DNA from: Gemmata sp.
GTDB lineage: Bacteria; Planctomycetota; Planctomycetia; Gemmatales; Gemmataceae
Direction of reading: 5' to 3'
Assembly: GCA_025055115.1 (NCBI GenBank)
Contig: JANWYJ010000013.1
Span: forward strand, 62,001 to 126,000
DNA: 64,000 bases
The position numbers were made by a program, and so were the translations under genes. The notes below the pieces were generated by a model. The model made no database searches and had not been told where the DNA came from. It saw only the letters and a list, made by a program, of their open reading frames with translations. Shown in pieces: positions 15,878 through 33,341 of this stretch; position 1 is the stretch's first letter; every line of letters begins with the position of its first letter.

Positions 15878-16597
15878 ATGCGTCGCGAATACCACCGATG
15901 GTGGAGTCCTGCACTGCACCGCGACATGGAATTGCTGGAATTCGGCCACGCCGGCGCGCGGGTGATTGTCTTTCCGACATCCCAAGCCCGGTTCTATGAA
16001 TGGGAAGACCGCGGCATGGTGGCTGCCGTCGCGGGGATGATTGCTCAGGGTTGGTTTCATGTCATTTGCGTGGATAGTGTCGATGCGGAAAGTTGGTACG
16101 CTTCTCATCTGCCCACAGCGGCGCGGATTGCGCGGCATGAGCAATACACGGCCTATGTCATGAACGAAGTCCTCCCGTGGGCGCGCTGGCGGAATCACCA
16201 CCCCTTCACTATTTTCACTGGGGCTAGTTTCGGCGGGTTCCATGCCTTGTCGATGGGGCTGCGGTATCCCAACCAAGTTCACCGCATCCTCAGTCTGAGC
16301 GGATTGACCGACATCAAGAGGTTCTTGGGAGGCTTTTATAACGAAGGGGTCTATTTTCAGAACCCCGTCGATTTCATACCCAACGAACATGATGATTGGC
16401 GGCTCCAACATCTCCGCCAACAAGATATCATCCTGACCGTAGGCCGCGACGACCCCTTACTCAACCAGAACCGCGAACTTTCCGGCAAGTTGTGGCATCG
16501 AGGGATCGGTAATGCTCTCCGCGAATGGGACGGTTTCGCCCACGATTGGCCCGTCTGGCAGCAACAACTCCGGATGTATCTTGGTGGTCATGATTGA
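15878..16597 (+). CDS. Putative esterase (alpha/beta hydrolase)
   Basis: A 239-residue alpha/beta hydrolase of the D-esterase-like group. The nucleophile elbow is GASFGGFHA near residue 113. The acid is probably in the VGRDDPLL turn and the base is His in FAHDWPVW near 225. There is no signal peptide. It opens a run of same-strand genes with two ATP-grasp proteins and a GCS2 ligase; in such clusters a hydrolase may cleave or transfer a thioester or peptide product. The ribosome-binding site is weak. Confidence 0.75.
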   Translation: MRREYHRWWSPALHRDMELLEFGHAGARVIVFPTSQARFYEWEDRGMVAAVAGMIAQGWFHVICVDSVDAESWYASHLPTAARIARHEQYTAYVMNEVLPWARWRNHHPFTIFTGASFGGFHALSMGLRYPNQVHRILSLSGLTDIKRFLGGFYNEGVYFQNPVDFIPNEHDDWRLQHLRQQDIILTVGRDDPLLNQNRELSGKLWHRGIGNALREWDGFAHDWPVWQQQLRMYLGGHD

Positions 16598-16721
16598 AAG
16601 GGAAGGGATCGCCGGATGACGAGTTGGGGGGCGATAATCCGACATTGTTCATCATCATTGTAATCAATCTGCGTTTCCATCACTCGGGGATTGGGTACGA
16701 ACTTCCAGTGAGGGCGATTCG

Positions 16722-17639
16722 GTGAAACGGGTGGGCGTGATCGTGGGTCGGGAGTGGTCGTTTCCGCCGCGATTCATCGACGAGGTGAATCGGCGGAACC
16801 TTGGGGTGATCGCCGAATATGCGAAGTTGGGCGGTACCCGGATGGACGAACGCATTCCCTACGCAGTGATTGTGGACCGGATTTCTCATGAAGTACCCTA
16901 CTATCGCACATATTTGAAACACGCCGTCCTGGAAGGCGTGACGGTGATCAATAACCCGTTTATGTGGTCGGCCGACGACAAGTTCTTCGGGGCCTCTTTG
17001 TGTTCGAAATTGGGCTTGGCTCATCCCAAAACCGTGGCTTTGCCCAATAAAGACTACGTCCCTGCGATCGTGCCCACCGAGAGCCTGCGGAATCTGGAAT
17101 ATCCGTTGAATTGGCAAGCGATCGTCGATTATGTCGGCTTACCGTGTATCCTCAAAGATGCTCATGGCGGTGGCTGGCGTGGCGTTTATGTTTGTCATTC
17201 CATTGAGGAATTGATTCGCTACTACGATAGCTCCGGACTGTTGACGATGATTGCGCAGGAGCTGATCCGCTGGGATTACTACGTTCGGGTGATGTGCATT
17301 GGCCGCCGTGAGATTCTGCCAATGCCCTACGACACTCACAATCGACGCTACCTACCCGACGACAACTATCTGTCGGCCGAATTGCGCGAGCGCGTGATCC
17401 AAGATTCCTCAAAACTCGTGCAGGCTTTGGGTTACGACATGAACACGGTGGAATGGGCCATCAAAGACGGTATTCCCTACGCGATCGACTTCATGAACCC
17501 TGCTCCGGACATGGATATCAACTCCCTGACGCCCCGATATTTTGATTGGGTTGTTACCAAAATGGCCGATTTGGTGATCGAACGGGCCATCAACCCCCAA
17601 CCCCCACTGGCCGAATTGCGTTGGGCGAAGTTGTTTTGA
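16722..17639 (+). CDS. ATP-grasp ligase
   Basis: A 305-residue protein starting at GTG 16722 (AGGG upstream). The ATP-grasp fold is indicated by GLPCILKDAHGGGWRGVYV (ATP-binding lysine and glycine loop near residue 145), MIAQELIRWDYYVRVMCIG (Glu and Arg region) and NTVEWAIKDGIPYAIDFMNPAPDMD (magnesium-binding Glu/Asp/Asn near 245-265). It should join a carboxylate to an amine or thiol through an acyl phosphate. Substrates are unknown. It is followed by a second, different ATP-grasp gene and a GCS2 ligase. Confidence 0.82.
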   Translation: MKRVGVIVGREWSFPPRFIDEVNRRNLGVIAEYAKLGGTRMDERIPYAVIVDRISHEVPYYRTYLKHAVLEGVTVINNPFMWSADDKFFGASLCSKLGLAHPKTVALPNKDYVPAIVPTESLRNLEYPLNWQAIVDYVGLPCILKDAHGGGWRGVYVCHSIEELIRYYDSSGLLTMIAQELIRWDYYVRVMCIGRREILPMPYDTHNRRYLPDDNYLSAELRERVIQDSSKLVQALGYDMNTVEWAIKDGIPYAIDFMNPAPDMDINSLTPRYFDWVVTKMADLVIERAINPQPPLAELRWAKLF

Positions 17640-17676
17640 GTCGCGTTGTAACCAACGGAACGAAGGTTTCCCCACC

Positions 17677-17701
17677 GATGGAACCCCATTGATGGAAACC
17701 C
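17677..17701. repeat. Short duplication before the second ATP-grasp gene
   Basis: GATGGAACCCC at 17677-17687 and GATGGAAACCC at 17691-17701 are near copies (period 14) in the gap between the two ATP-grasp genes. Confidence 0.5.
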
Positions 17702-17744
17702 TATTCCCGGAAGGGGCTTACGGCTGGTGGTGGAGAGTGGCACC

Positions 17745-19097
17745 ATGTCCGACGCTATTGCGGTCTATCATGACTTGCTCACGGCCCACGCGACATTGGC
17801 GGCCGACTCCCAGGCAACCCTGGATCAATCCCAACAGCTGCGTGGCTTGGTCTTTGGGACACGTCCAGTCTGCACCACGTTGCGCCCCCGTTTCCTGACC
17901 TTCGCCCAATACCGTCGGCTCCACGACACGGTGCAGCTTCTTCTGCCGGCGTTCCAAACGATCTATCATCGGGCGATTGCCGACGTGGGGTTCCGGTCGC
18001 AATTCCGCCTCACGGAGTGGGAACATGAGCTACTGAACGTTGAACCCGGATATTCTGACCCCAGCCCCACCAGCCGCTTCGACACCTTTTTTGCCTCCGA
18101 TGATGAGCTTTTGTTTACGGAGTACAACTCGGAAACACCCGCGGGAGCGGCCTATTCGGATGCCCTCACGGAAATTTTCTATGGCCTACCGGTTTTCCAA
18201 GAATTCCAGCGTCGTTTCCGGGTTTGGCCCGTGCCCGCCAAGCCTGGCATCCTCCACGCCCTACTGGATTCCTTTCGGCAATGGCAAGGCCACTCCTCGG
18301 AGCCACCCCGCATCGCCATTCTCGATTGGCGCGAAGTCCCCACGTTCAGCGAATTCGTGCTCTTCTACGACTACTTCAAACAAATGGGGATCGAAGCTCG
18401 GATTGTCGACCCCCGCGATGTCGAGTATCGCGACGGCCAATTGTGGGCTGGGGATTATCCCATCACGTTGATCTACAAACGCGTGTTGATTGGCGAGTTG
18501 ATTGAACGCGGTGGTCTAGAACATCCGGTGGTGCGGGCCGTGCGCGACCGGGCCGTTTGTATGGTCAACTCGTTCCGCTGTAAAATTCTTTTCAAAAAGG
18601 CCTCGCTGGCGGTTCTCTCCGATGAGCGCAACGCGGCTCTGTTCACGCCGGCGCAACAGGCAGCCATCGCCCAGCACATCCCCTGGACCCGGGTGGTTGA
18701 AGCACGCACGACGACCTGCGACGGTCAAGAAATCGATCTCATCCCTTGGGCCTCCCGCAACAAGGATCAGCTCGTTCTCAAACCCAACGACGATTACGGC
18801 GGCAAGGGTATCGTTTTGGGTTGGACCGTCGATCAGGCCACTTGGGATAACGCGCTGGAAACCGCTCTGACCACCCCGTTTGTCGTTCAAAAACGGGTTC
18901 GGATACCCTCAGAACCCTTCCCGAGCTGGAATGATGGCCACCTGCACATCCAGGAACGGATTCTCGATACCAATCCCTTCGTCGCCTTGGGAGCCTTCAT
19001 GCATGGCTGCCTGACACGCATCTCCACCGAGGCTCTTGTCAATGTGACGGCCGGCGGAGGCTCCACCGTACCCACATTCATCATCGAACCACGATAA
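17745..19097 (+). CDS. Glutathionylspermidine-synthase-like (circularly permuted) ATP-grasp protein
   Basis: A 450-residue protein from ATG 17745 (GGAG nine bases upstream). [59 protein letters not shown] and [17 protein letters not shown] resemble the circularly permuted ATP-grasp fold of glutathionylspermidine-synthase-type amide ligases, with the ATP-binding [10 protein letters not shown] loop near residue 347. A late [13 protein letters not shown] segment is typical. It probably makes an amide bond in the same pathway as its neighbours; the exact substrate is unknown. Confidence 0.75.
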
Positions 19098-19197
19098 TCG
19101 CCGCGGAAACATTTTCCAATGACCACACACCGGTTACAACATTATCACCTCTCAGGTCTTGGGAAAATCTGCCGCTACACGCTGGAGAGTGATTGCC

Positions 19198-20307
19198 ATG
19201 AAAGCCCCGTCACTGACTTTGGGTATAGAGGAAGAGTATCAGATTATTGATCCATCCACCGGGGAATTGCGTTCCTACATCACTCAAATTCTCGATGAAG
19301 GCAAACTCATCCTCAAAGAGCAAATCAAAGCCGAACTGCATCAATCAATGGTGGAAGTGGGAACGGAAATCTGCCAAACACCCGCGGAAGCCCGCCGAGA
19401 ATTGGTGAAACTCCGCCGCAGCATCACCGAACTGGCTCGGCGCCACGGTCTGGTGATCGCCGCCGCGGGGACACACCCATTTTCCAATTGGGAACAGCAG
19501 GAAATCACCCCTTTTGAACGTTATTTGGGGGTTCAAAACGATATGCAAGACCTCGCCCGGCAACTGCTCATCTTTGGGACACATGTCCATATTGGTATCG
19601 AGGATCGCGACTTTCTCATCGACGCGATGAACGTCGCCCGCTATTTCGCGCCGCACGTTTTGTGTCTGTCCACCTCGTCGCCGTTTTGGATGGGGCGGAA
19701 CACGGGCTTGAAGAGTTACCGGTCGATCATTTTCCGCCATTTTCCCCGCTCGGGCATTCCACCACTATTCACCGACTGGGTGGAGTATGAAGGGATGGTG
19801 AAAACGATGGTCAGAACCAACTGCATTCCGGATGGCTCCAAGATTTGGTACGATGTCCGCCCCAATCATCGCTATCCGACTCTTGAATTCCGCATCTGTG
19901 ATGTCTGTACCAAGGTGGATGAAGCGATTTGTATTGCGGCAATTTTTCAAGCCATCATCGCCAAGCTGTGGAAACTGCGGCGCGATAACATGACCTTCCG
20001 TGTTTACCCCACCGAGCTGATTGAGGAAAATAAATGGCGAGCGGTGCGCTATGGGCTAGATGGCCACTTGCTGGATTTGGGCAAAGAAAAAGAAGTCCCC
20101 GTGCGGGAGTTGATTCACGAGATGATCGATTGGTTTCTCCGCGATGTGATCGACGAGTTGGGAACCCGCGCCGAGATCGAATACGCCTATAAAATCCTTG
20201 AAACCGGTGCCAGCGCCGACCGCCAACTGAAAACCTTCGCTCAAACAGGCCATACCCGCGCGGTCGTCGAACAACTGGTCCAGGAAACGCAAGAAGGCCT
20301 CAACTGA
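19198..20307 (+). CDS. GCS2 family carboxylate-amine ligase (YbdK-like)
   Basis: A 369-residue protein from ATG 19198 (GGAGAG eight bases upstream). [19 protein letters not shown] at the N-terminus, [30 protein letters not shown] and [27 protein letters not shown] are hallmark segments of the glutamate-cysteine ligase 2 / YbdK family, which activates a carboxylate with ATP and joins it to an amine. Length is normal. Its position after two ATP-grasp genes and an esterase suggests synthesis of a small peptide-like or amide metabolite. Confidence 0.88.
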
Positions 20308-23336: not shown

Positions 23337-25277
23337 TCACGCCCCTCGCCCGACTCGTAGCATCGCCCAGACCGGAAAATACACCGGATACAATTCATAG
23401 CGAAGCATCGCCGAACCAAAAAAAACACCATTGACAATTTCCAAATATCGCGCAGAATTGTAGTGAACATAAAGCCAGTTTGCGCCGCGACGGACCGCGG
23501 GATGCTGGCTACCCACAACCTCGGCCAATGCGATCACGGCCCAACTGGTCATGGAGGGAAGTGATTGCGGATTCTCCACATACGCGCCGCGCAGACAGGA
23601 GGAAAAATGCTCCCCCCAACCACCATCGGTTCGCTGATGCGTCATCAGCCATTGCGCCGCCGCTTGGAGCCGAGGATGTTCAACCGGAACTCCGGCTGCG
23701 CGAAGGCCACGGACCGCATGAAACGTGCCATAAGTGAGGTAAATACCCCACGCGCCCGGAAATGCGCCATCGGATCGTTGCCTCTGGAGCAGAAATCTTA
23801 CGCCCCGATCGATCGCCCTTTGGAGGCGGTGCGACTGCTTGTGAGGAAACGCCTCCCGGTAGCGGCTCAGAGCCACCAACGAGGAACCCGTGCACTCAAT
23901 GTAAGATTGATCCGTCATACATTGCGTGAACATTTCGGACGGATTCCATCGTTCTATCCACCGCGGGGCCTTGGCTTGTTCGTACGAACCAAAACCACCA
24001 TCGGCATTTTGACGCGATAGGATGAACTCCACGGCTTGATCCAACCGTGCCGAAGAAATCGGACAGGGGACCTCACAAACCTTGTGAATCCCCAACACCG
24101 CAGCCAAGGCCTCCGCGGTGCAATCGCTCACTGGCCAAGCATGCTCGGCTGTGCCCAAACACCACCCACCGCTGGCATCATCGGGCCATGTGGGGTCACG
24201 ATCGGCCAGTGATTCCGTCATTTGGTTGGCCGCGAGAAATTCATACGCCCGAAGTAGTTGTCGTTCGTATCTACGAGCCATGCTGGGATCAGCAAGCAGC
24301 GCCTCCAGCGCAAAGGCTGTGTCCCAAACCGTTGTCGAACCACCCGCGTAGCGGAGGCCGTCTTGGTCATCATCGACGCGATAATACTCGAAACCGGCGA
24401 TACAGCGCTGTGTTTCCTCGGGTTGGTTTTGCCAATGGAAAATCAACGCATTGAGGGTGTTATTCACCGGCGAAAGAGAGCGAAAGTGGTTGGTTCTAAG
24501 CTCACGGAGGATACTTTCCAGACAACGGCGACAAGCCCGTTGGCGTAGCGATCGGCTGGCGTGTCGGTCGTAAACGCTGAGGATTCCCTCAACAAGTCGA
24601 AGTATCCATCCAGGTGGCTCAATAAGGTCTTCACTGGCAAAGTGATAGCGATACGGGCGAAACGATGGCGGCAGGCCACGAGGGCCATACAGTTCGTGGA
24701 TCAGGTCTTGTGTGATAGGCCCAAGGTTGAAGCGAACTCGGTGACTTTGCAGTACCGCCATTGCCAAGTAGATGTAGCGCGTGTGGCAGTAGAAGCGCAA
24801 CGGGTGAAACGGCAACCAACGCGGTAGCAGGACCAGCTCTGGTAGCAGCGGCCGCACGCCTTCCCAACCGTAAAGACCCATCAGCGCTAGCCAAAATTTC
24901 CCCCACGTCGGAGCAGCTAAGATGCCACCGTGAGACTGAAGCCATCGCCGCGCGCGCGCCGTCAACGGATGATCGGCCGCCATGCCTAAAAGCCGCGCCG
25001 CGACATATACCAACGACGTGACGAAAACCGAACCCGAATGTTCGGCATGCAAACCAAACGATCCAGCCGACGTTTGCGTTCGTTGAAAATAAAGCCACAG
25101 ACGTTGTTTTTCCGAGGGACTGAAGGGATGGCCCGCGATATGCCGGCTGATAACCACCTGTGCCGTCACCACCGGGCACCAGACCATCTCCCCTTCCCAA
25201 TAGCCCTTGGCATGTTGCCGGGCCAGGAGGTCATCAATGGCAGAAATCGATACTGTTGGGCCGAGGGCAGAAATCAC
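23337..25277 (-). CDS. osc: Oxidosqualene cyclase (sterol-type)
   Basis: A 646-residue triterpene cyclase. The protonation motif reads VSDCTAEA (Asp about 385), the DCTAE form of oxidosqualene cyclases, not the DxDDTA of squalene-hopene cyclases. Other OSC-like stretches are SFGLHAEHSGSVFVTSLVYV, FWLALMGLYGWEGVRPLLPE, SLSPVNNTLNAL, YAGGSTTVWDTAFALEAL, QNADGGFGSYE and GGWGEHFSSC. It should cyclise 2,3-oxidosqualene to a protosterol such as lanosterol or parkeol. The GTG start overlaps the methyltransferase stop (GTGA). It is short for an OSC (often over 700). Confidence 0.88.
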   Translation of the reverse strand: MISALGPTVSISAIDDLLARQHAKGYWEGEMVWCPVVTAQVVISRHIAGHPFSPSEKQRLWLYFQRTQTSAGSFGLHAEHSGSVFVTSLVYVAARLLGMAADHPLTARARRWLQSHGGILAAPTWGKFWLALMGLYGWEGVRPLLPELVLLPRWLPFHPLRFYCHTRYIYLAMAVLQSHRVRFNLGPITQDLIHELYGPRGLPPSFRPYRYHFASEDLIEPPGWILRLVEGILSVYDRHASRSLRQRACRRCLESILRELRTNHFRSLSPVNNTLNALIFHWQNQPEETQRCIAGFEYYRVDDDQDGLRYAGGSTTVWDTAFALEALLADPSMARRYERQLLRAYEFLAANQMTESLADRDPTWPDDASGGWCLGTAEHAWPVSDCTAEALAAVLGIHKVCEVPCPISSARLDQAVEFILSRQNADGGFGSYEQAKAPRWIERWNPSEMFTQCMTDQSYIECTGSSLVALSRYREAFPHKQSHRLQRAIDRGVRFLLQRQRSDGAFPGAWGIYLTYGTFHAVRGLRAAGVPVEHPRLQAAAQWLMTHQRTDGGWGEHFSSCLRGAYVENPQSLPSMTSWAVIALAEVVGSQHPAVRRGANWLYVHYNSARYLEIVNGVFFGSAMLRYELYPVYFPVWAMLRVGRGA

Positions 25278-26152
25278 GTTTGGCGAACCGCCTTCCAGAT
25301 TCCCAGGAGAAAGACCCCACGGCGAGCCGCATCAATGAGCTTCAGCCCACCTTCGAGCATCATCTGCTCCACCTTGGGGATAACAAACCGCATATAGGTA
25401 TTGAGTAAACGCAAGGACTTACGATCAATATGTTCCCAATTTTTTAGAACATTTCCATATTTTGCCAGGTTATCAGCAGTATGAATGGCAAAACCGGCAT
25501 CGTTGAGAAAGCCGCGCAGATCCGCCAGCGAAATCAGATTGGGAATACCGTGAAGCCGGCAGATGGGTTCGATATAGTCGGCTTCGTCTTGTGGCAGGAG
25601 GGTATCGCTACGAAACCAATCAGTGCCGACAAATATACCACCGGGTTTCAAAACCCGGGCGCATTCCTTGTAGAAACGGCCTTTATCTGGCATGTGACAA
25701 CCGGCTTCGATGACATATACCGCGTCGAAGGTGCTGTCGGGAAATGGCATCGCCATTGCATCGGCTACGAGAAATTCCGTGCGCTCACTAAAGCCCATTT
25801 CGCTCGCTCGCGCCCGAGCGATTTGAACGTGCGCTTCTACGATGTTGATACCGGTGATATGAGCGCCACAGTGGCGAGCGATTGTCAGAGCTGGTCCACC
25901 GACACCACAACCGACATCTAAAACTTTCATGCCCGAGTGCAGGCCGGCGAAATCAGCAAGCCATTGCTCGGTCGCTACCATCGCGTCGTCCAATGATTCC
26001 TCACCGCGAAAAATCGCAAAGTGAAAGGACACTCCCCACTTTTCCAGATAGATCGGTGTAACTAAATCATAATATTGACGGATAAGATCAACATAGTGCT
26101 CTTTGCGAATATGTGCTTCGTGAGCGAGTTTGTGATATTCAGGGGTGGGCAT
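25274..26152 (-). CDS. Sterol C-methyltransferase-like SAM methyltransferase
   Basis: A 292-residue class I methyltransferase. IRQYYDLVTPIYLEKWGVSFHFAIF aligns with the sterol-binding region of eukaryotic ERG6/SMT (YYxLVTxFYEYGWGxSFHF). LDVGCGVGGPALTIAR is the SAM-binding motif as in SMT, and VYVIEAGCHMPDKGRFYKECARVLKPGG matches ERG6's AIEATCHAP...VLKPGG. It lies between squalene monooxygenase and the cyclase and overlaps the latter by four bases, which argues for a sterol or squalene substrate. Alternatives are a prenyl or tocopherol-type methyltransferase. It lacks the C-terminal part seen in some SMTs. Confidence 0.75.
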   Translation of the reverse strand: MPTPEYHKLAHEAHIRKEHYVDLIRQYYDLVTPIYLEKWGVSFHFAIFRGEESLDDAMVATEQWLADFAGLHSGMKVLDVGCGVGGPALTIARHCGAHITGINIVEAHVQIARARASEMGFSERTEFLVADAMAMPFPDSTFDAVYVIEAGCHMPDKGRFYKECARVLKPGGIFVGTDWFRSDTLLPQDEADYIEPICRLHGIPNLISLADLRGFLNDAGFAIHTADNLAKYGNVLKNWEHIDRKSLRLLNTYMRFVIPKVEQMMLEGGLKLIDAARRGVFLLGIWKAVRQT

Positions 26153-26185
26153 AGCTTGATAGAAGTTCGCAGATGGTAAAAAATA

Positions 26186-27502
26186 TCAAGCGACAATCAT
26201 TTCGCGTGCGAACCAACCACCCCAGCGTCCTAAACCGCACACGGCGGCTAGCGACCGACTCCAAGAACGTGTCAGCAACTCTCGGACGATCTGTCGCGAG
26301 GCAGCCGACAACAGCCGCGCAAAGGTAATTCCTAAGGCGAGGCGGCGGGTTTCGCGCACAGCCAGCAGCCGCATCGTGTCGTGGCGGGCCGCTGCGGACG
26401 TTCGCCATAACTGATACACGGCTTGACGCAGTTCGACACTACCCGGATCGGAGCTGACGAACAAGTCGTAAAGCCCCATCGAAAGCAACTCAGGAACGCG
26501 ACCGGCGAAGTAACGCTTGGCAGCGAATTCTTCCACAGTCGCCGACTCCGCAAGGGTTACAGCATCCAGAAAACCGACCGACATGCCCACCGCGCAGAGA
26601 GGATGGCAATGCCCCACAGCATCACCGATCAACGCCATCTTTCCACGGCCGTAATATCGCCGCCGCAACAACTGATTGGCCGCCACAGCCGGTGCGTCCG
26701 TTTCCAATGCCTTCTGGCAGGCATCGGCGATCGGGCCAGGAAGGATCGAGCGATAAGCCCTCACCAACTCGTGCGGGTGACGAATCCACATTACGCGATC
26801 CGCGGGAACATCGAAACACACCCGTGCTTGCGTCGCGTTGACGCGAAATGCCAGCACCGGCCCGGGCCCCCCCAGAAAAACGTTCCCATGCTCGGGATAC
26901 GGCAAAACCGCTGCTGGAATCAGAAAACCGGCCATGTACGAGACCGGACGGCCGTTGCCGGCATAACCAAGCTTTTGCCGAACAACCGACTGGCGACCAT
27001 CCGCCCCCACCACCCAGTCGCTGCGCAACGTAACCGAATGTGCTCGCCGGGCACAAACCGCCACGACCTTCCCTGGCCCCACATCCACAACACGATAACC
27101 GTGAATGACGTGGATATTCGGGATTTGCGCCATCGTGGCGTGCAACGCCTGCACAAGCCAATGATGCTGGCAGCCAACCCCCAACTCCCCCCCCACATAG
27201 GAGAGGACAATCGGCGTACTCCCTGCCGGGAAGATCGCGAAGCCACGACCGCAGGCATGCGGAACGCCCTGCTTCGTCAAATCTACACCCAAATGGGAGA
27301 GCACACTGGCTCCCGTGGGGTGAAGCCACTCGCCCGCCAAGCGTGTCGGGGCACAACCCGCATCAATCACACACACACGCACACCGCGGCGCGCCCAAGC
27401 CAGCGCGGCGACGCAGCCCACCGGCCCTGCCCCTACAATCGCGACATCCGCCGTCAACTGCCTACCAACGGATCGCGCATCCTGCGTCAGCAAAGACATC
27501 AT
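26186..27502 (-). CDS. Squalene monooxygenase-like FAD enzyme
   Basis: A 438-residue flavin monooxygenase. The dinucleotide fold GAGPVGCVAALAWARRG is near residue 24, the DG motif reads VVGADGRQSVVR, and the GD motif reads MALIGDAVGHCHPLCAVGMSVGFLDAVTL, comparable to GDAxNMRHPLTGGGM in squalene epoxidases. The C-terminus has weakly hydrophobic helices. It should make 2,3-oxidosqualene for the cyclase two genes on. FAD hydroxylases of UbiH type are the alternative; gene context decides. The gap to the methyltransferase is 33 bases. Two adjacent ATGs (27502, 27499) are possible starts. Confidence 0.8.
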   Translation of the reverse strand: MMSLLTQDARSVGRQLTADVAIVGAGPVGCVAALAWARRGVRVCVIDAGCAPTRLAGEWLHPTGASVLSHLGVDLTKQGVPHACGRGFAIFPAGSTPIVLSYVGGELGVGCQHHWLVQALHATMAQIPNIHVIHGYRVVDVGPGKVVAVCARRAHSVTLRSDWVVGADGRQSVVRQKLGYAGNGRPVSYMAGFLIPAAVLPYPEHGNVFLGGPGPVLAFRVNATQARVCFDVPADRVMWIRHPHELVRAYRSILPGPIADACQKALETDAPAVAANQLLRRRYYGRGKMALIGDAVGHCHPLCAVGMSVGFLDAVTLAESATVEEFAAKRYFAGRVPELLSMGLYDLFVSSDPGSVELRQAVYQLWRTSAAARHDTMRLLAVRETRRLALGITFARLLSAASRQIVRELLTRSWSRSLAAVCGLGRWGGWFAREMIVA

Positions 27503-27614
27503 GCACTCGTGTTCATGGAAAGAGAATGAAGTTTTCTACAGTGAGGAATTCACGGACCCACACTGGCGTGATGGTCCGAATGTGTTGAATCTGGCCTCCT
27601 GGATGAACTTTCAA

Positions 27615-27683
27615 GGACCGAACACATTGCCTCAGCGTGTTGGTTTTATGGACCGAACGCATTGCCTCAGCGTGTTGGTTTTA
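27615..27683. repeat. 34-bp tandem duplication
   Basis: Units at 27615-27648 and 27650-27683 are identical except for one base, both running GGACCGAAC to GTTGGTTTTA. They lie in the 27503-27882 gap between the sterol operon and the molybdenum/tungsten operon. Confidence 0.93.
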
Positions 27684-27778
27684 CTCGGAATGACGAATTT
27701 ATGCAATTCCGGATTTGTACTGCCATGAGTTTCTGGATGGCAATTTCGCTCGCGATCAAGGGAAGGAGAAGTATCGAG

Positions 27779-27810
27779 GGAAGGATCAGGGAAAGGAAGG
27801 ATCAGTGAAA
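27779..27810. repeat. 16-bp tandem duplication
   Basis: GGAAGGATCAGGGAAA (27779-27794) is followed directly by GGAAGGATCAGTGAAA (27795-27810), just upstream of the predicted promoter. Confidence 0.85.
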
Positions 27811-27825
27811 GAGAGAACGCACGGC

Positions 27826-27866
27826 TCGACATCTCGCCGAACCAGTATATACTGGTACTCAGTACC
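27826..27866 (+). promoter_or_regulatory. Promoter with overlapping operator palindromes (Mo/W operon)
   Basis: TCGACA (27826-27831, one mismatch to the -35 consensus), a 16-base spacer and TATACT (27848-27853, -10) lie just before the CsoR-like gene. The perfect palindrome ACCAGTATATACTGGT (27841-27856) covers the -10, and a second, GGTACT-C-AGTACC (27854-27866), overlaps its end near the expected transcription start. Such placement suits repressor binding, perhaps by the first gene's product. Confidence 0.55.
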
Positions 27867-27882
27867 CCCAACGAGGACTGGC

Positions 27883-28179
27883 ATGCCTTCCCGCTCCGAC
27901 CCCCCCCTCGTGGTCTATGATGATTCGATCCGCCAGGAGCTGCACGATCGCCTTGGCAAAGTCGAAGGCCAACTTCGTGGCATCGGTCGGATGATCGACC
28001 ATCAACGGCCCCCGGAGGAGGTTTTGCAACAGCTGGCCAGTATCCGTTCGGCCGTCAAAAGTATTACGAAAGCGGTCATGCGCTCGTACATCGTCGGGTG
28101 TGCGGCCGAAGCGGCTCGTTCTGGTGATGGAGCTCTTGATACGATGTTGGAAATGTTGCTGAAATTTGTGAAGGAGTGA
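27883..28179 (+). CDS. CsoR/RcnR (DUF156) family regulator lacking the metal-binding triad
   Basis: A 98-residue all-helical regulator; ATG 27883 has GAGG about six bases upstream. RQELHDRLGKVEGQLRGIGRMID and VLQQLASIRSAVKSITKAVM are the DUF156 core. In CsoR, copper is bound by Cys-His-Cys; here the first position reads RPPEEVL (Pro for Cys) and the second reads MRSYIVGC (Tyr for His), so only the last Cys remains. It is unlikely to sense copper. As first gene of a molybdate/tungstate operon with palindromes over its promoter, it may be an autoregulator responding to oxyanions or another signal. Confidence 0.8.
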   Translation: MPSRSDPPLVVYDDSIRQELHDRLGKVEGQLRGIGRMIDHQRPPEEVLQQLASIRSAVKSITKAVMRSYIVGCAAEAARSGDGALDTMLEMLLKFVKE

Positions 28180-28185
28180 AGCTCG

Positions 28186-28836
28186 TTGACCGCGTGCGAT
28201 CCGGAATTGTGGTCGATTGTAACGTTGACGCTGCGCGTCACACTGGTGGCATTGGTGATCGCATCGGTTCTGGGCATTCCTCTGGGTGTGTGGTTGGGTC
28301 TGGCTCGCTTTCCAGGCAAACGGCTCTTTGTGGCGCTGGTTTATACCGGCATGAGCCTTCCTCCCGTGGTCGTCGGTTTGCTGGTGTACATGCTGTTATC
28401 GCGGAGCGGTCCTCTGGCGTTTTTGGAATGGCTTTTTACACCCCAAGCGATGATTGTGGCCCAAACGGTGATAGCCCTGCCCCTTATTGCCGGATTGGTC
28501 ATGGGTGCTGTTGCTGCGGTACCCGGGGACCTGGTGGGGCAAATCCGCAGCCTCGGAGCGACCCCGTGGCAAGTGCGGTGGGCGGTCTTACGCGAAGCGC
28601 GTGTGGGGGTGTTGTTTGCACTTTTGGTTGCTTTTGGCCGGATTGTGAGTGAGGTGGGCGCGGCCTACATGGTTGGTGGGAATATCCAAGGGCATACTCG
28701 GGTGTTGTCGACGGCGATTATGATGGAGACTGGGAAAGGCGATTTCGCCCTCGCTTTGGCCTTGGGGGGATGGCTGATGGTTTTGGCTTTGAGTGTGAAC
28801 CTTGCCGCCATGCGCTTACAGGGGAGATCGCTGTGA
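28186..28836 (+). CDS. tupB: Tungstate-type ABC transporter permease TupB
   Basis: A 216-residue permease starting at TTG 28186, preceded by AAGGAG nine bases away. It has about five to six helices; VLGIPLGVWLGLARFPGKR, SLPPVVVGLLVYMLLSRSGPL and the docking loop QIRSLGATPWQVRWAVLREAR followed by AFGRIVSEVGAAYMVGGNIQGHTRVLSTAI are typical of TupB/WtpB-like channels. It is six bases after the regulator and overlaps the ATPase gene as GTGA. Confidence 0.88.
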   Translation: MTACDPELWSIVTLTLRVTLVALVIASVLGIPLGVWLGLARFPGKRLFVALVYTGMSLPPVVVGLLVYMLLSRSGPLAFLEWLFTPQAMIVAQTVIALPLIAGLVMGAVAAVPGDLVGQIRSLGATPWQVRWAVLREARVGVLFALLVAFGRIVSEVGAAYMVGGNIQGHTRVLSTAIMMETGKGDFALALALGGWLMVLALSVNLAAMRLQGRSL

Positions 28837-29561
28837 ACCGCACTCTGGCCTATCGGCTCGAAAATGTCGCGGTTCAGCATGGTTGGCGCGAAGTTCTTCA
28901 TTTGCCGACGTTGGAGGTTTTCGCCGGGGAAATTCTCTGTTTAGTGGGTCCACCGGGTTCAGGGAAAAGCACGCTCTTGCGACTTTTAGCGGGTTTACAA
29001 CGACCCAGCCGCGGCCAGGTGTGGTTTCACGGCGAACTCTTGAACTATCCGATGCCTATTACGGTCCAGCGGACCATCACATTGGTGTTCCAGCGACCTC
29101 TGTTGCTCACGGGCACGGTGCGTTCGAATGTGGAGTATGGCTTGCGCATTCGCGGTGATGCCCAACGGCACCAAAAAGCCCTGGCGATCTTGGAGCGGAT
29201 GCATTTGGCTCACCTCGCCGATCGACCGGCCAGCGCCATTTCTGGCGGGGAGGCCCAACTCGTGGCTGTGGCACGGGCGTTGGCTATCGCCCCTGAAGTA
29301 CTGTTACTCGATGAACCCACGAATAATCTGGACCCGGCGCGGGTCGCATTGGTCGAAGAGGTTGTTCTTGCAGACCACAAGTTGCGTGGCACAACGGTGG
29401 TTTGGGCAACGCACAATCATTTCCAAGCGCGCCGCGCCGGTTCGCGTGTCGCTCTTTTGCTCGACGGTCGATTGATTGAAACGGCTGCGGCCACCGATTT
29501 CTTTGCCATGCCGCGCGACGCGCGGACTGCCGCATTCATCCAAGGCCAGATGGTGTACTAA
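28833..29561 (+). CDS. tupC: Tungstate-type ABC transporter ATPase TupC
   Basis: A 242-residue ATPase starting at GTG 28833, which overlaps the tupB stop. Walker A is VGPPGSGKS, the Q-loop is LVFQRPLLLTGTVRSNVEYGL, the signature is ISGGEAQLVAVARALA and Walker B is VLLLDEPTNNLDP. It powers the TupB channel. The next ATG lies one base after its stop. Confidence 0.88.
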   Translation: MNRTLAYRLENVAVQHGWREVLHLPTLEVFAGEILCLVGPPGSGKSTLLRLLAGLQRPSRGQVWFHGELLNYPMPITVQRTITLVFQRPLLLTGTVRSNVEYGLRIRGDAQRHQKALAILERMHLAHLADRPASAISGGEAQLVAVARALAIAPEVLLLDEPTNNLDPARVALVEEVVLADHKLRGTTVVWATHNHFQARRAGSRVALLLDGRLIETAAATDFFAMPRDARTAAFIQGQMVY

Positions 29562-29562
29562 T

Positions 29563-30393
29563 ATGGGCATGCGATGGTTCTTCATCCTCTGTGGAATTCT
29601 CGTTGTCTGTAGCGGTTGCCTCAATGCTCCGGAGAAGTGCATTACATTGGCCACCACCACCAGCACGCGCGATACCGGTTTACTCGATGAATTGATACCC
29701 CGCTTCCGGGCCAAAACGGGTATCGAGGTGCGCGTGGTCGCGGTCGGTACGGGTCAGGCGCTGGAGATTGGCCGGCGCGGCGATGCTGACGTGTTGCTGA
29801 CTCACGATCCGGCCGCGGAACAACGTTTCCTCCATGAACATCAGGGTACGTCCCGGAATGAATTGATGACCAACGACTTTGTCTTGGTCGGACCACCCGA
29901 CGACCCCGCCAACGTCCGGGCGGCGCCATCCGGCGCCGACGCTTTCAGACGCATTGGGCAAGCCCAAGCCGTTTTCATCTCCCGGGCCGATGAATCGGGA
30001 ACTCACCACAAGGAAAAAGCTACCTGGCTGGCAGCAGGGCTGGAACCCGCTGGCGACTGGTACATTCGTTGCGGCCAGGGCATGGGCGCTGTGCTACGCA
30101 TGGCTGATGAGAAACGCGGCTACACGCTGGCTGATCGCGGTACCTTTATCGCCCAGCGGGCAAAGTTGAACCTGGCCATTCTCCATTCGGGCGATCCGGA
30201 ATGGATCAACCGGTATTCCGTGATTGCCGTCAACCCGCAACAGCACCCACATGTCAAGGATGTTTGGGCCGCCGAGTTCATTACCTATCTTTTGTCGAGT
30301 GAAGCTCAACAGATTATTGCGGAATTTGGTCGTAGCCAATACGGGGAACCGCTATTTCGTGCCAGTCGCTGGCCACTGAGGAATGGGCATTGA
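29563..30393 (+). CDS. tupA: Tungstate-binding periplasmic lipoprotein TupA
   Basis: A 276-residue substrate-binding protein from ATG 29563. A short signal peptide ends in a lipobox (VVCSGC, Cys about 20). ITLATTTSTRDTGLLDELIPRFRAKTGIEVRVVAVGTGQALEIGRRGDADVLLTHDP is near-diagnostic for TupA, where the TTTSTRDTG loop grips the oxyanion. FISRADESGTHHKE is the second ligand loop. It delivers tungstate (possibly molybdate) to TupBC. Its TGA overlaps the next ATG by one base. Confidence 0.9.
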   Translation: MGMRWFFILCGILVVCSGCLNAPEKCITLATTTSTRDTGLLDELIPRFRAKTGIEVRVVAVGTGQALEIGRRGDADVLLTHDPAAEQRFLHEHQGTSRNELMTNDFVLVGPPDDPANVRAAPSGADAFRRIGQAQAVFISRADESGTHHKEKATWLAAGLEPAGDWYIRCGQGMGAVLRMADEKRGYTLADRGTFIAQRAKLNLAILHSGDPEWINRYSVIAVNPQQHPHVKDVWAAEFITYLLSSEAQQIIAEFGRSQYGEPLFRASRWPLRNGH

Positions 30394-31670
30394 TGAGGCC
30401 CCCAGCGCTTCGCGCTTCACGCACGCCCATAGCCGTGATGAAGGTTCTTTACCTTCTCGCGGTTACGGTGGTGGTATTCTGCCAGACAGCCGTGGAGGAA
30501 TCGCTGACGGCCTGGATCGTGGGTGGGCTGTTCGCCCTGCAAGTGGTCATCCTTCTGGGTTGTGGTGTACCCCGTCGTGAACTTGTGCGCCCCTTGGCAC
30601 GCCTAAAGTGGTTTTTTGTCATTCTCTTTGGCGTCTATGCGTTTGTGCCTGGAGACGAGGAAGAGATCCCAGCCCGCTGGCAAGCGGTGTTCATAATCGG
30701 CCAGTGGGTGTGGATCAACCGCACTGGTATCGCCCACGCGGGTTTCATCAGCCTTCAGATTCTGACGGTCATCTTCGCAGCAGCGGTTGTCCGTCGGATC
30801 GGCCCGCCTACGGATTTCGTGGTTGGCTTGCAGGCCCTGGGTTTGCCCAAACTCTTCGTGTACTCCCTCCATCTCATCCTGGCCCAACTCACTGGCCCAG
30901 GACCAACACCCCGTGCTGGTCGTGGCCATGAATCCGCCATGGACAACTCCCCGGGATTCTTCACCATTTGGCGACAGTTGATCCGCGGTGATGTCACCCT
31001 GCTCACACTGGCGATCCACGCTGCTTTTGCGAATGCCCAGCGGCAGTTAGAAACGGAAATGCCTGAACCGCTTGACCCCCGACGGTCTCACGACGTTGTC
31101 GTGATTGCGGGCATCGGCGGGATGATGATCGGATTGAAGATGCTGAAGCTCTTGCCAGGAGTGCCGATTGCCAGCGGCCACAAGACTTTGCTGTTATTTC
31201 CCCTTTATTTGCTCGCAGCCCGACTGACCTCTACCCGTTGGGGTGGAACCACCGCGGGGGCGGTGATGGGCGTTGTGGCGTTTTTACAAGGTGATGGGCG
31301 CTTTGGGATTTTTGAAGTTCTGAAGCACTTGGCTCCGGGTTGCCTCATCGACCTCCTGATGCCTGTGGTACGACGGTTACCCACGCGGGCATGGGTTTAT
31401 TGCGGTGTCGGATTGCTGGCCGGCTTCGCCCGCTTGGCGGCGGAAATCGTTGTCCTCCTGCTCTTGGGGACTCGCGCGGAGGTCTACCTCTTTTGGAGCG
31501 TGAAATTACTCCCAACACTGGCCGCAGGTTTGCTGAGTGGCTTTGTCACCCTCGCGGTTGTGCGGGCCTTTCCCACCGGTCGTTTACCGGAGGCTGACAA
31601 CCGCGACAACAAAGCCCTGTCACCAACCCAGAAACCCCTACTCATCGGTCCTTCTCAGGAGAAGCCGTGA
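30393..31670 (+). CDS. Large membrane protein, possible ECF-type T/S-component fusion
   Basis: A 425-residue protein with about ten membrane segments in two halves separated by a hydrophilic stretch (about 165-235). The N-terminal half (LARLKWFFVILFGVYAF, FISLQILTVIFAAAVV, LPKLFVYSLHLI) faintly recalls EcfT/CbiQ proteins. The C-terminal half (KTLLLFPLYLLAARLTSTRWGGTTAGAVMGVVAFLQGDGRFGIFEVLKH) resembles ECF substrate-binding components. This reading is tentative. It overlaps tupA by one base and mosA by four, so it is translationally coupled into the molybdenum/tungsten operon. Confidence 0.5.
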   Translation: MRPPALRASRTPIAVMKVLYLLAVTVVVFCQTAVEESLTAWIVGGLFALQVVILLGCGVPRRELVRPLARLKWFFVILFGVYAFVPGDEEEIPARWQAVFIIGQWVWINRTGIAHAGFISLQILTVIFAAAVVRRIGPPTDFVVGLQALGLPKLFVYSLHLILAQLTGPGPTPRAGRGHESAMDNSPGFFTIWRQLIRGDVTLLTLAIHAAFANAQRQLETEMPEPLDPRRSHDVVVIAGIGGMMIGLKMLKLLPGVPIASGHKTLLLFPLYLLAARLTSTRWGGTTAGAVMGVVAFLQGDGRFGIFEVLKHLAPGCLIDLLMPVVRRLPTRAWVYCGVGLLAGFARLAAEIVVLLLLGTRAEVYLFWSVKLLPTLAAGLLSGFVTLAVVRAFPTGRLPEADNRDNKALSPTQKPLLIGPSQEKP

Positions 31671-32530
31671 CAGAAATCATCCAAGAAGGGGCAGGCCGCC
31701 GCACGCATATCCGCAGCCCCCTCATGCGGGAATCGCTGATGGATCGTCACGTGTTGACGGCCACCGATCAGCAGCCGGTGTTACCCATCCTGCCTGATGT
31801 TCACGTTGTTCACATCGGTGGGGCAAGCATTCTCGATCGCGGCAAGGCGGCCATCGTTCCGCTGTTGGATGAAATTGTTCGCTGTCGGCAGAAATACAAA
31901 ATTCTCCTGGGCGTTGGTGGCGGCGCCCGGATGCGGCACACTTACCACATCGCGTTGGATTTGGGGATTCCTACCGGCGGTTTGGCAATGGTCGCTGGGG
32001 CAGTCAACGAACAAAACCGCTACATGGTTCAAGCCCTTTTGGCCAAACATGGGGGCGTTGTTCTCCACAAAGACCACTATGTGGTACTCCCCTTGTGGTT
32101 GGCGTCGGGGATGATTCCGATTCTCAGTGGAATGCCGCCCTATCACTATTGGGAACCACCCACCGGTGTACAGCGCATCCCCCATTATCGGGAAGATTTT
32201 GGTTTATTTATGGTCAGCGAGGTGTTGGGTGCCGCCTCGATGATCTTTGTGAAAGATGAAAACGGCCTGTACACTGCGGACCCTAAACGACACCCCGAAG
32301 CACGCTTCATTCCCACGATCACGGCTCAGGAGATTCTGGCCAGTGATTTCCCCGACTTGATCATCGACCGATCCGTCCTGGAAAGTATGGTCCATGCTCG
32401 TAACACGCGCCGGATTCAGATTATCAATGGGCTGAAGCCCGAACTGTTAGCGCGGGCTTTGGCCGGAGAACCGGTGGGTACTGTGATCACGGCACCGCCT
32501 GTGGAGAAGGAGTCTGTCAATGCCCCGTGA
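31667..32530 (+). CDS. mosA: Molybdenum storage protein subunit (amino-acid-kinase fold)
   Basis: A 287-residue protein starting at GTG 31667 (GTGA overlap with the previous gene). It has the amino-acid/UMP-kinase fold of the Azotobacter molybdenum storage protein: PDVHVVHIGGASILDRGKAAIVPLLDEI, LLGVGGGARMRHTYHIALDLGIPTGGLA, SGMPPYHYWEPP, MIFVKDENGLYTADPKRHPEARFIP and INGLKPELLARALAGEPVGTVI. MoSto packs molybdate or tungstate into polyoxometalate clusters using ATP. Which of the two genes matches alpha or beta is a guess. Confidence 0.85.
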   Translation: MTEIIQEGAGRRTHIRSPLMRESLMDRHVLTATDQQPVLPILPDVHVVHIGGASILDRGKAAIVPLLDEIVRCRQKYKILLGVGGGARMRHTYHIALDLGIPTGGLAMVAGAVNEQNRYMVQALLAKHGGVVLHKDHYVVLPLWLASGMIPILSGMPPYHYWEPPTGVQRIPHYREDFGLFMVSEVLGAASMIFVKDENGLYTADPKRHPEARFIPTITAQEILASDFPDLIIDRSVLESMVHARNTRRIQIINGLKPELLARALAGEPVGTVITAPPVEKESVNAP

Positions 32531-33341
32531 AGCCCCCGCGCGCAAAACCATCGCTACCCCGTTGGGTGAAAGCACACTCGACGCCGCCGACCTGTTGAAC
32601 AACACATCCTATGGGCCGCCCATTCGTGTATTGCCAGATGTTCATGTGATTAAAGTGGGTGGGCAGAGTTTCTTCGATCGTGGCCGCTCAGCGGTCGCGC
32701 CGTTGGTGGAGGAAATCGCCGCGTGTGCGAAATCGTACCAGCTCCTGATCGGTATGGGCGGTGGCACCCGGTCGCGGCATGCCTACAGCCTGGGTTTGGA
32801 GCTGGGACTGCCAACGGGAATTCTCGCAGCGATGGGAGCTTCGACGGCACTGCAGAATGCCCATCTGATGCAAATGTTGCTCGCCAAGCACGGCGGGATT
32901 TTGACAAGTTTTGAGGAATTTGAGAAGTTACCGCTGTATCTGCGCGCTGGGTGTATTCCCGTGATGGTGGGCATGCCGCCGTTCCACCATTGGGAACGTC
33001 CGCCCGAAACTGGTCGCATTCCTGCCAACCGCACCGATGCCGGGGTGTATCTGATGGCCGAGTTTCTGGGCGCAAAGTCGATGATCTACATCAAGGATGA
33101 AGACGGGCTTTACACAGACGATCCCAAAAAGAATCCGTCCGCGACATTTATCCCCCACATCAGCGCAGGGGAGTTACTGGCGATGGACCCCAACGATCTG
33201 GTCATTGAACGGGTCGTTCTGAGTTATCTCCAAAAAGCCCATCATGTCCGATCCGTCCAAATCATCAATGGTCTGAAGCCGGGATTATTGACCCGGGCAC
33301 TGGCGGGCGAACACGTCGGTACGATTATCACCGCGGAGTAA
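32520..33341 (+). CDS. mosB: Molybdenum storage protein subunit (second paralogue)
   Basis: A 273-residue paralogue of the preceding gene, overlapping it by 11 bases; AAGGAG lies seven bases before the ATG. PDVHVIKVGGQSFFDRGRSAVAPLVEEIAAC, LLIGMGGGTRSRHAYSLGLELGLPTGILA, VGMPPFHHWERP, MIYIKDEDGLYTDDPKKNPSATFIPHIS and INGLKPGLLTRALAGEHVGTIITAE closely follow the MosB pattern. The pair should build a hetero-hexameric storage cage. It ends the operon. Confidence 0.88.
   Translation: MPREAPARKTIATPLGESTLDAADLLNNTSYGPPIRVLPDVHVIKVGGQSFFDRGRSAVAPLVEEIAACAKSYQLLIGMGGGTRSRHAYSLGLELGLPTGILAAMGASTALQNAHLMQMLLAKHGGILTSFEEFEKLPLYLRAGCIPVMVGMPPFHHWERPPETGRIPANRTDAGVYLMAEFLGAKSMIYIKDEDGLYTDDPKKNPSATFIPHISAGELLAMDPNDLVIERVVLSYLQKAHHVRSVQIINGLKPGLLTRALAGEHVGTIITAE

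Follow-up and report, generated by a model that had tools for sequence, protein, structure and literature searches.

The products that oxidosqualene cyclases (OSC) form from oxidosqualene carry Delta24, the target of sterol methyltransferases (SMT). Methylation of C24 at the protosterol stage takes place on lanosterol in filamentous fungi and on cycloartenol in plants, and the squalene methyltransferases of Botryococcus are relatives of the SMTs. Steranes methylated in the side chain, like C31 protosteroids, are interpreted as evidence of eukaryotes.

In the planctomycete Gemmata obscuriglobus, the sterols are lanosterol and parkeol (PMC6606645; PMC4919349). Bacterial SMTs that methylate C24 of the sterol side chain were demonstrated by Brown et al. 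2023 (PMC10070321), and therefore the general idea of bacterial side-chain SMTs is not new. Those enzymes were selected as hits of yeast Erg6 with E <= 1e-50, 30% identity and the C-terminal domain, and planctomycetes are not mentioned in the text of that study. We found no description of a methyltransferase in planctomycete sterol clusters in a literature search that left subscription journals and preprints outside.

Here we analyse a stretch of 64,000 nucleotides (the window) of a Gemmata sp. genome, which carries a methyltransferase gene between the genes of a squalene monooxygenase (SQMO) and an OSC. The window is part of contig 93 of a genome of 4.93 Mb that is 98% complete. The new part is the compact planctomycete and cyanobacterial version of the methyltransferase.

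Results

A three-gene operon

The sequence-only reading had proposed a three-gene sterol operon, which our analysis confirms: all three open reading frames lie on the minus strand at the positions given in Table 1, and both SQMO and OSC pass the cut-offs of their families. SQMO reaches 71.4 bits against Pfam SE, above the cut-off of 20.1, and OSC reaches 872.9 bits against its NCBIfam model (cut-off 851) and contains WPVSDCTAE; they belong to the squalene monooxygenases and the 2,3-oxidosqualene cyclases, respectively. The middle protein is a class I SAM methyltransferase, and its gene is separated from SQMO by 33 nt. The overlap of the last two genes by GTGA, also claimed in that reading, is present in the minus-strand letters of the window (...CCAAACGTGATTTC...) and is kept in G017, a genome of the same genus (CALDUT010000010, 'uncultured Gemmata sp.'), where the counterpart reads ...AAACGTGACTGC....

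Table 1 Positions of the operon, of neighbouring features in the window and of related clusters in other genomes.
Feature	Position	Strand	Remarks
SQMO (squalene monooxygenase)	window 26186..27502	minus	first operon gene; PF08491 SE 8.5e-20 and FAD_binding_3
Compact SMT-like SAM methyltransferase, 292 aa, without Sterol_MT_C	window 25274..26152	minus	Methyltransf_11 2.1e-25
OSC (oxidosqualene cyclase), DCTAE motif	window 23337..25277	minus	TIGR03463; PF13249/PF13243
GTGA overlap (OSC start GTG, methyltransferase stop TGA)	window 25274..25277	minus	read from sequence; kept in G017
35-nt tandem repeat	window 27609-27678		2 copies, 91%
Repressor, transporter and kinase-fold genes	window 27715-33341		kept in G017
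Row with ATP-grasp-like and GCS2 genes	window 15878-20307		conserved
Sterol loci of G021	L055 3758-10362 and L056 6452-11709
Sterol cluster of the Scytonema sp. MAG	L070 140-14382
Acidipila / Burkholderia clusters	L073 4970-12105 and L072 3217-10510

The tandem repeat lies between SQMO and a divergent metal-repressor-like gene and is not kept in G017, and scans for promoters and terminators gave results near chance level. The genes beyond the repeat encode a metal-sensitive repressor, an ABC transporter (permease, ATPase and PBP_like_2; tungstate/molybdate-like) and two adjacent proteins of the amino-acid-kinase fold, which are possibly a Mo/W storage protein pair. On the other side of the operon, the row of an esterase-like protein, two ATP-grasp-like proteins and a GCS2 glutamate-cysteine ligase is possibly a pathway for a peptide-like metabolite.

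Conservation within the genus

G017 keeps all three genes together with their flanks (RNase Y, GCS2 and the ABC transporter). Amino-acid identity between the window and G017 is 76% for SQMO, 84% for the methyltransferase and 80% for OSC, and the corresponding dN/dS values are 0.12, 0.06 and 0.08, with dS saturated. The conserved genes and flanks and the low dN/dS show that the operon did not arise from a chance reading or an error of assembly.

Of 198 relatives, with the genome of the window included in the count, 15 have an OSC, and 12 of these 15 belong to the genus. Among 99 relatives, 3 have a methyltransferase at ortholog level, and each of these is OSC-positive. At the locus, no methyltransferase of the window type was found in the ten OSC-positive genus members other than the window's own genome (G000) and G017; eight of these ten have a complete adjacent SQMO-OSC pair, in one the contig ends within SQMO, and G018 gave no SQMO match near OSC. 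The window SQMO is 61-66% identical to the SQMO of other genus genomes with such pairs, and the OSCs of the genus are about 60% identical. The OSC tree groups the two species that have the methyltransferase (100/99), next to the remaining members of the genus (82/82).

The H and V that precede DCTAE in the window OSC are common to most OSCs of the genus, and therefore the same ring products are expected; in cyclase mutants, these positions steer the product. The window's genome encodes three SQS_PSY proteins, which makes a supply of squalene likely. Three such proteins were counted in G000 and in G017 each, versus one or two in the other tested OSC-positive genomes of the genus. A search for ERG4/ERG24 in G000 and G017 gave no match, so the substrate of the methyltransferase is likely a little-modified protosterol.

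Similarity of the methyltransferase to sterol methyltransferases

We compared the methyltransferase with SMTs (SMT1, SMT2 and Erg6) and tocopherol methyltransferases, using manually entered reference sequences. The closest similarity is to the SMTs: the window protein scores 159 bits against Arabidopsis SMT1 (35% over 291 aa), 141 against Erg6 as well as SMT2, and 110 against the Synechocystis tocopherol methyltransferase. Profile-profile scores amount to 361 against the SMTs and 294 against the tocopherol methyltransferases, and a profile built from the four sterol-cluster proteins yields 182 bits for SMT1, 175 for Erg6, 163 for SMT2, 159 for the tocopherol type, 131 for RebM and 128 for MitM.

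The class I SAM motif of SMTs, LDVGCG(V/I)GGP, is present as LDVGCGVGGP at residues 78-87. Region II (IEATCHAP) reads IEAGCHMP, which keeps E195, A196, C198 and H199 and changes T197 and A200, while YLEKWG stands in the place of Region I (YEYGWG). Equivalents of the yeast Erg6 residues Y81, W85, F89, H90, F91, E98, E108, D125, D189, E195, C198, H199 and W225 are kept, and those of E82, Y83 and D276 are not. Sterol_MT_C (PF08498) is absent from the window protein even at E <= 10, whereas the manually entered ERG6 and SMT1 score 97-101 bits. When 392 genomes of the phylum, 297 of another phylum and 6 locus genomes were searched for the domain, there was no match, which is not proof of absence as the control genomes were also unmatched.

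The description of the protein in the sequence-only reading as an ERG6/SMT homologue thus stands only in part. Its nearest characterised family is the sterol C24-methyltransferases and its relatives lie in sterol clusters of two phyla, but without PF08498 and with YEYGWG changed it is no strict member of that family.

In a tree of 61 rows, the methyltransferase clade, the SMTs and two planctomycete proteins are joined at 99/99; with pieces of RebM, AtmM, MitM and SpnF added, the union with the SMTs is weakly supported (83/63). Phylogeny had been named as a check of the SMT assignment, with a grouping among tocopherol methyltransferases as the outcome against it, and the AU test disfavours a forced clade with the tocopherol methyltransferases of cyanobacteria (p 0.035). 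It does not reject a clade with the O/N-methyltransferases RebM and MitM (p 0.10).

The structure model, a further check suggested at the outset, was obtained with confidence (AlphaFold AF2, pLDDT 92.7), but its comparison failed to separate SMT-like enzymes from O/N-methyltransferases, with no SMT among the matches listed. Its top solved-structure matches are the O/N-methyltransferases RebM, AtmM and MitM; near-full-length matches include MitM, AtmM, GPP methyltransferase, BezA and mycolate cyclopropane synthases, and isoprenoid/alkene C-methyltransferases are among the closest folds (GPP methyltransferase, Z 30.5; CmaA1, 29.1). These matches show the general fold of the protein, not its substrate.

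Relatives in other gene clusters

Among 392 genomes drawn across the phylum, matches at E <= 1e-45 occur only in the window's own genome. A relative with 48% identity is found in G021, a MAG of the same family but of a different genus (VGYC01, 'Planctomycetota bacterium K_Offshore_120m'). Here, a first contig carries SQMO, a GGR-type FAD reductase, the methyltransferase and a 3beta-HSD/epimerase-like SDR, and a second contig carries OSC, ERG4/ERG24, ERG2, a Rieske oxygenase and a P450. The gene set is near-complete for demethylated, side-chain-methylated sterols, far beyond that of Gemmata obscuriglobus. Bsr, the myxobacterial C24 reductase, is a GGR-family protein (PMC12004948); the G021 protein shares this family, but in the place of the YxWxFP motif it appears to read YCALFR (by eye against that study), and the full motif seems to be missing.

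A second sterol cluster lies in a MAG labelled Scytonema sp., in the order ERG24-SQMO-OSC-Rieske-methyltransferase-ERG2-Rieske-Rieske-SDR-P450-Rieske, with a methyltransferase of 51-53% identity. This MAG has the only strong match among 291 genomes of its order; the rest are mostly of tocopherol type (34-41%). The SDR, the P450 and the last, SdmA-like Rieske protein are 62-65% identical to their G021 counterparts, which suggests that sterol genes were transferred between phyla, and by family these proteins of the two clusters are likely SdmA, SdmB and CYP51. The cluster also includes additional Rieske oxygenases, which are of KshA_C type. Because homologues (48-53%) sit in the sterol clusters of G021 and the Scytonema MAG, a sterol role of the methyltransferase is very likely.

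Two relatives with 42-43% identity, from Acidipila rosea and Burkholderia sp. E7m39, also fall inside the methyltransferase clade (89/88). Their neighbours are not sterol genes: they encode YcaO, a nitroreductase, a squalene-hopene-cyclase C-terminal-like protein and an MTH865-like small protein, and the clade is therefore not sterol-only. The cyclase-like protein has about 740 aa, and the cluster looks like a candidate peptide-modification cluster with this unusual member.

Discussion

Based on these comparisons, we consider it fairly probable that the compact SMT-like enzyme methylates C24 of lanosterol or parkeol to give C31 24-methylene protosterols, and that the three genes make up a minimal pathway. 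SQMO would convert squalene to 2,3-oxidosqualene, and its cyclisation by OSC would yield a protosterol with Delta24, which could be lanosterol, parkeol or both, the sterols of Gemmata obscuriglobus. The methyltransferase would then transfer the methyl group of SAM to the C24=C25 bond, with loss of a proton from the new methyl, and the product would be 24-methylene-dihydrolanosterol (eburicol) or 24-methylene-dihydroparkeol. We infer this substrate, the position at C24, the timing after cyclisation and the product from sequence, by which the enzyme probably works like an SMT while standing outside the domain-defined family. For the G021 and Scytonema enzymes, demethylated Delta24 sterols are predicted substrates.

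An enzyme that acts on a sterol at another site, by O-methylation of the 3-hydroxyl or by ring C-methylation as in the nematode 4-SMT, is an unlikely alternative in view of the evidence at hand. It would agree with the structure matches to O/N-methyltransferases and with the clade that the AU test does not reject, and nematodes do have a sterol C4-methyltransferase, which acts on C4 of 3-keto sterols (PMC6997595). Profile searches, on the other hand, score the SMTs above enzymes of the RebM/AtmM/MitM type, C4 of a protosterol is already dimethylated and thus no target, and the equivalents of the catalytic-site residues E195, C198 and H199 are kept.

Still less probable is a methylation of squalene or oxidosqualene, as by the SMT-related triterpene methyltransferases of Botryococcus, before the cyclase turns the product into a methylated sterol. 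The order SQMO-methyltransferase-OSC in the window and in G017 would fit it, and this order was the sole basis on which the sequence-only reading had supposed that methylation could precede cyclisation. We rejected gene order as evidence because it varies between clusters: the gene follows OSC in Scytonema and lies on another contig than OSC in G021. Moreover, the substrates of known SMTs are Delta24 sterols, which have already been cyclised. We regard it as very improbable that the enzyme stands outside sterol metabolism, as a tocopherol/quinone or peptide-modifying methyltransferase that came into the operon by chance. The generic fold and the relatives next to YcaO genes would allow this, but three lineages from two phyla have the gene in their sterol clusters, a single clade with tocopherol methyltransferases is disfavoured, and the operon with its overlap is conserved under purifying selection.

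With C24 methylation of the protosterol as the preferred reading, we tentatively propose that Planctomycetota and Cyanobacteriota hold a compact lineage of side-chain SMTs without Sterol_MT_C, missed by ERG6-based surveys, through which a bacterium would need just two further sterol genes to produce C31 24-methylated protosterols. As a putative sister of the eukaryotic SMTs, this lineage may keep an older, shorter form. The Gemmata-like bacterium and such relatives are probable producers of methylated sterols, which might be misread as signs of complex life; two bacterial lineages are added here, whose shorter enzyme escapes searches based on domains. The near-complete sterol modification sets of G021 and the cyanobacterial MAG bear on the movement of sterol genes between bacteria and eukaryotes, and the three-gene system is small enough for a test in a single experiment.

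Among known systems, the SQMO-OSC pair of Gemmata obscuriglobus has the same two enzymes in adjacent genes; in nine other genus genomes with SQMO beside OSC, no methyltransferase lies between them. The cyanobacterial gamma-tocopherol methyltransferase belongs to the same superfamily and has the HMPDK motif in common with the window enzyme, but forms a separate clade. With the eukaryotic SMTs (ERG6, SMT1 and SMT2) the window enzyme shares 35-37% identity in the catalytic domain, the SAM motif, the E-A-x-C-H site and Y81/W85/H90, and it differs from them in the absent Sterol_MT_C, the changed Region I and its length of 292 aa against 336-383. The bacterial SMTs of Brown et al. 2023 are likewise SAM methyltransferases from bacterial sterol clusters with an SMT-like catalytic domain; the window protein falls short of both the E-value and the domain filter by which they were chosen, since its E-value is no better than 2.8e-43 even in a tiny database and it has no C-terminal domain.
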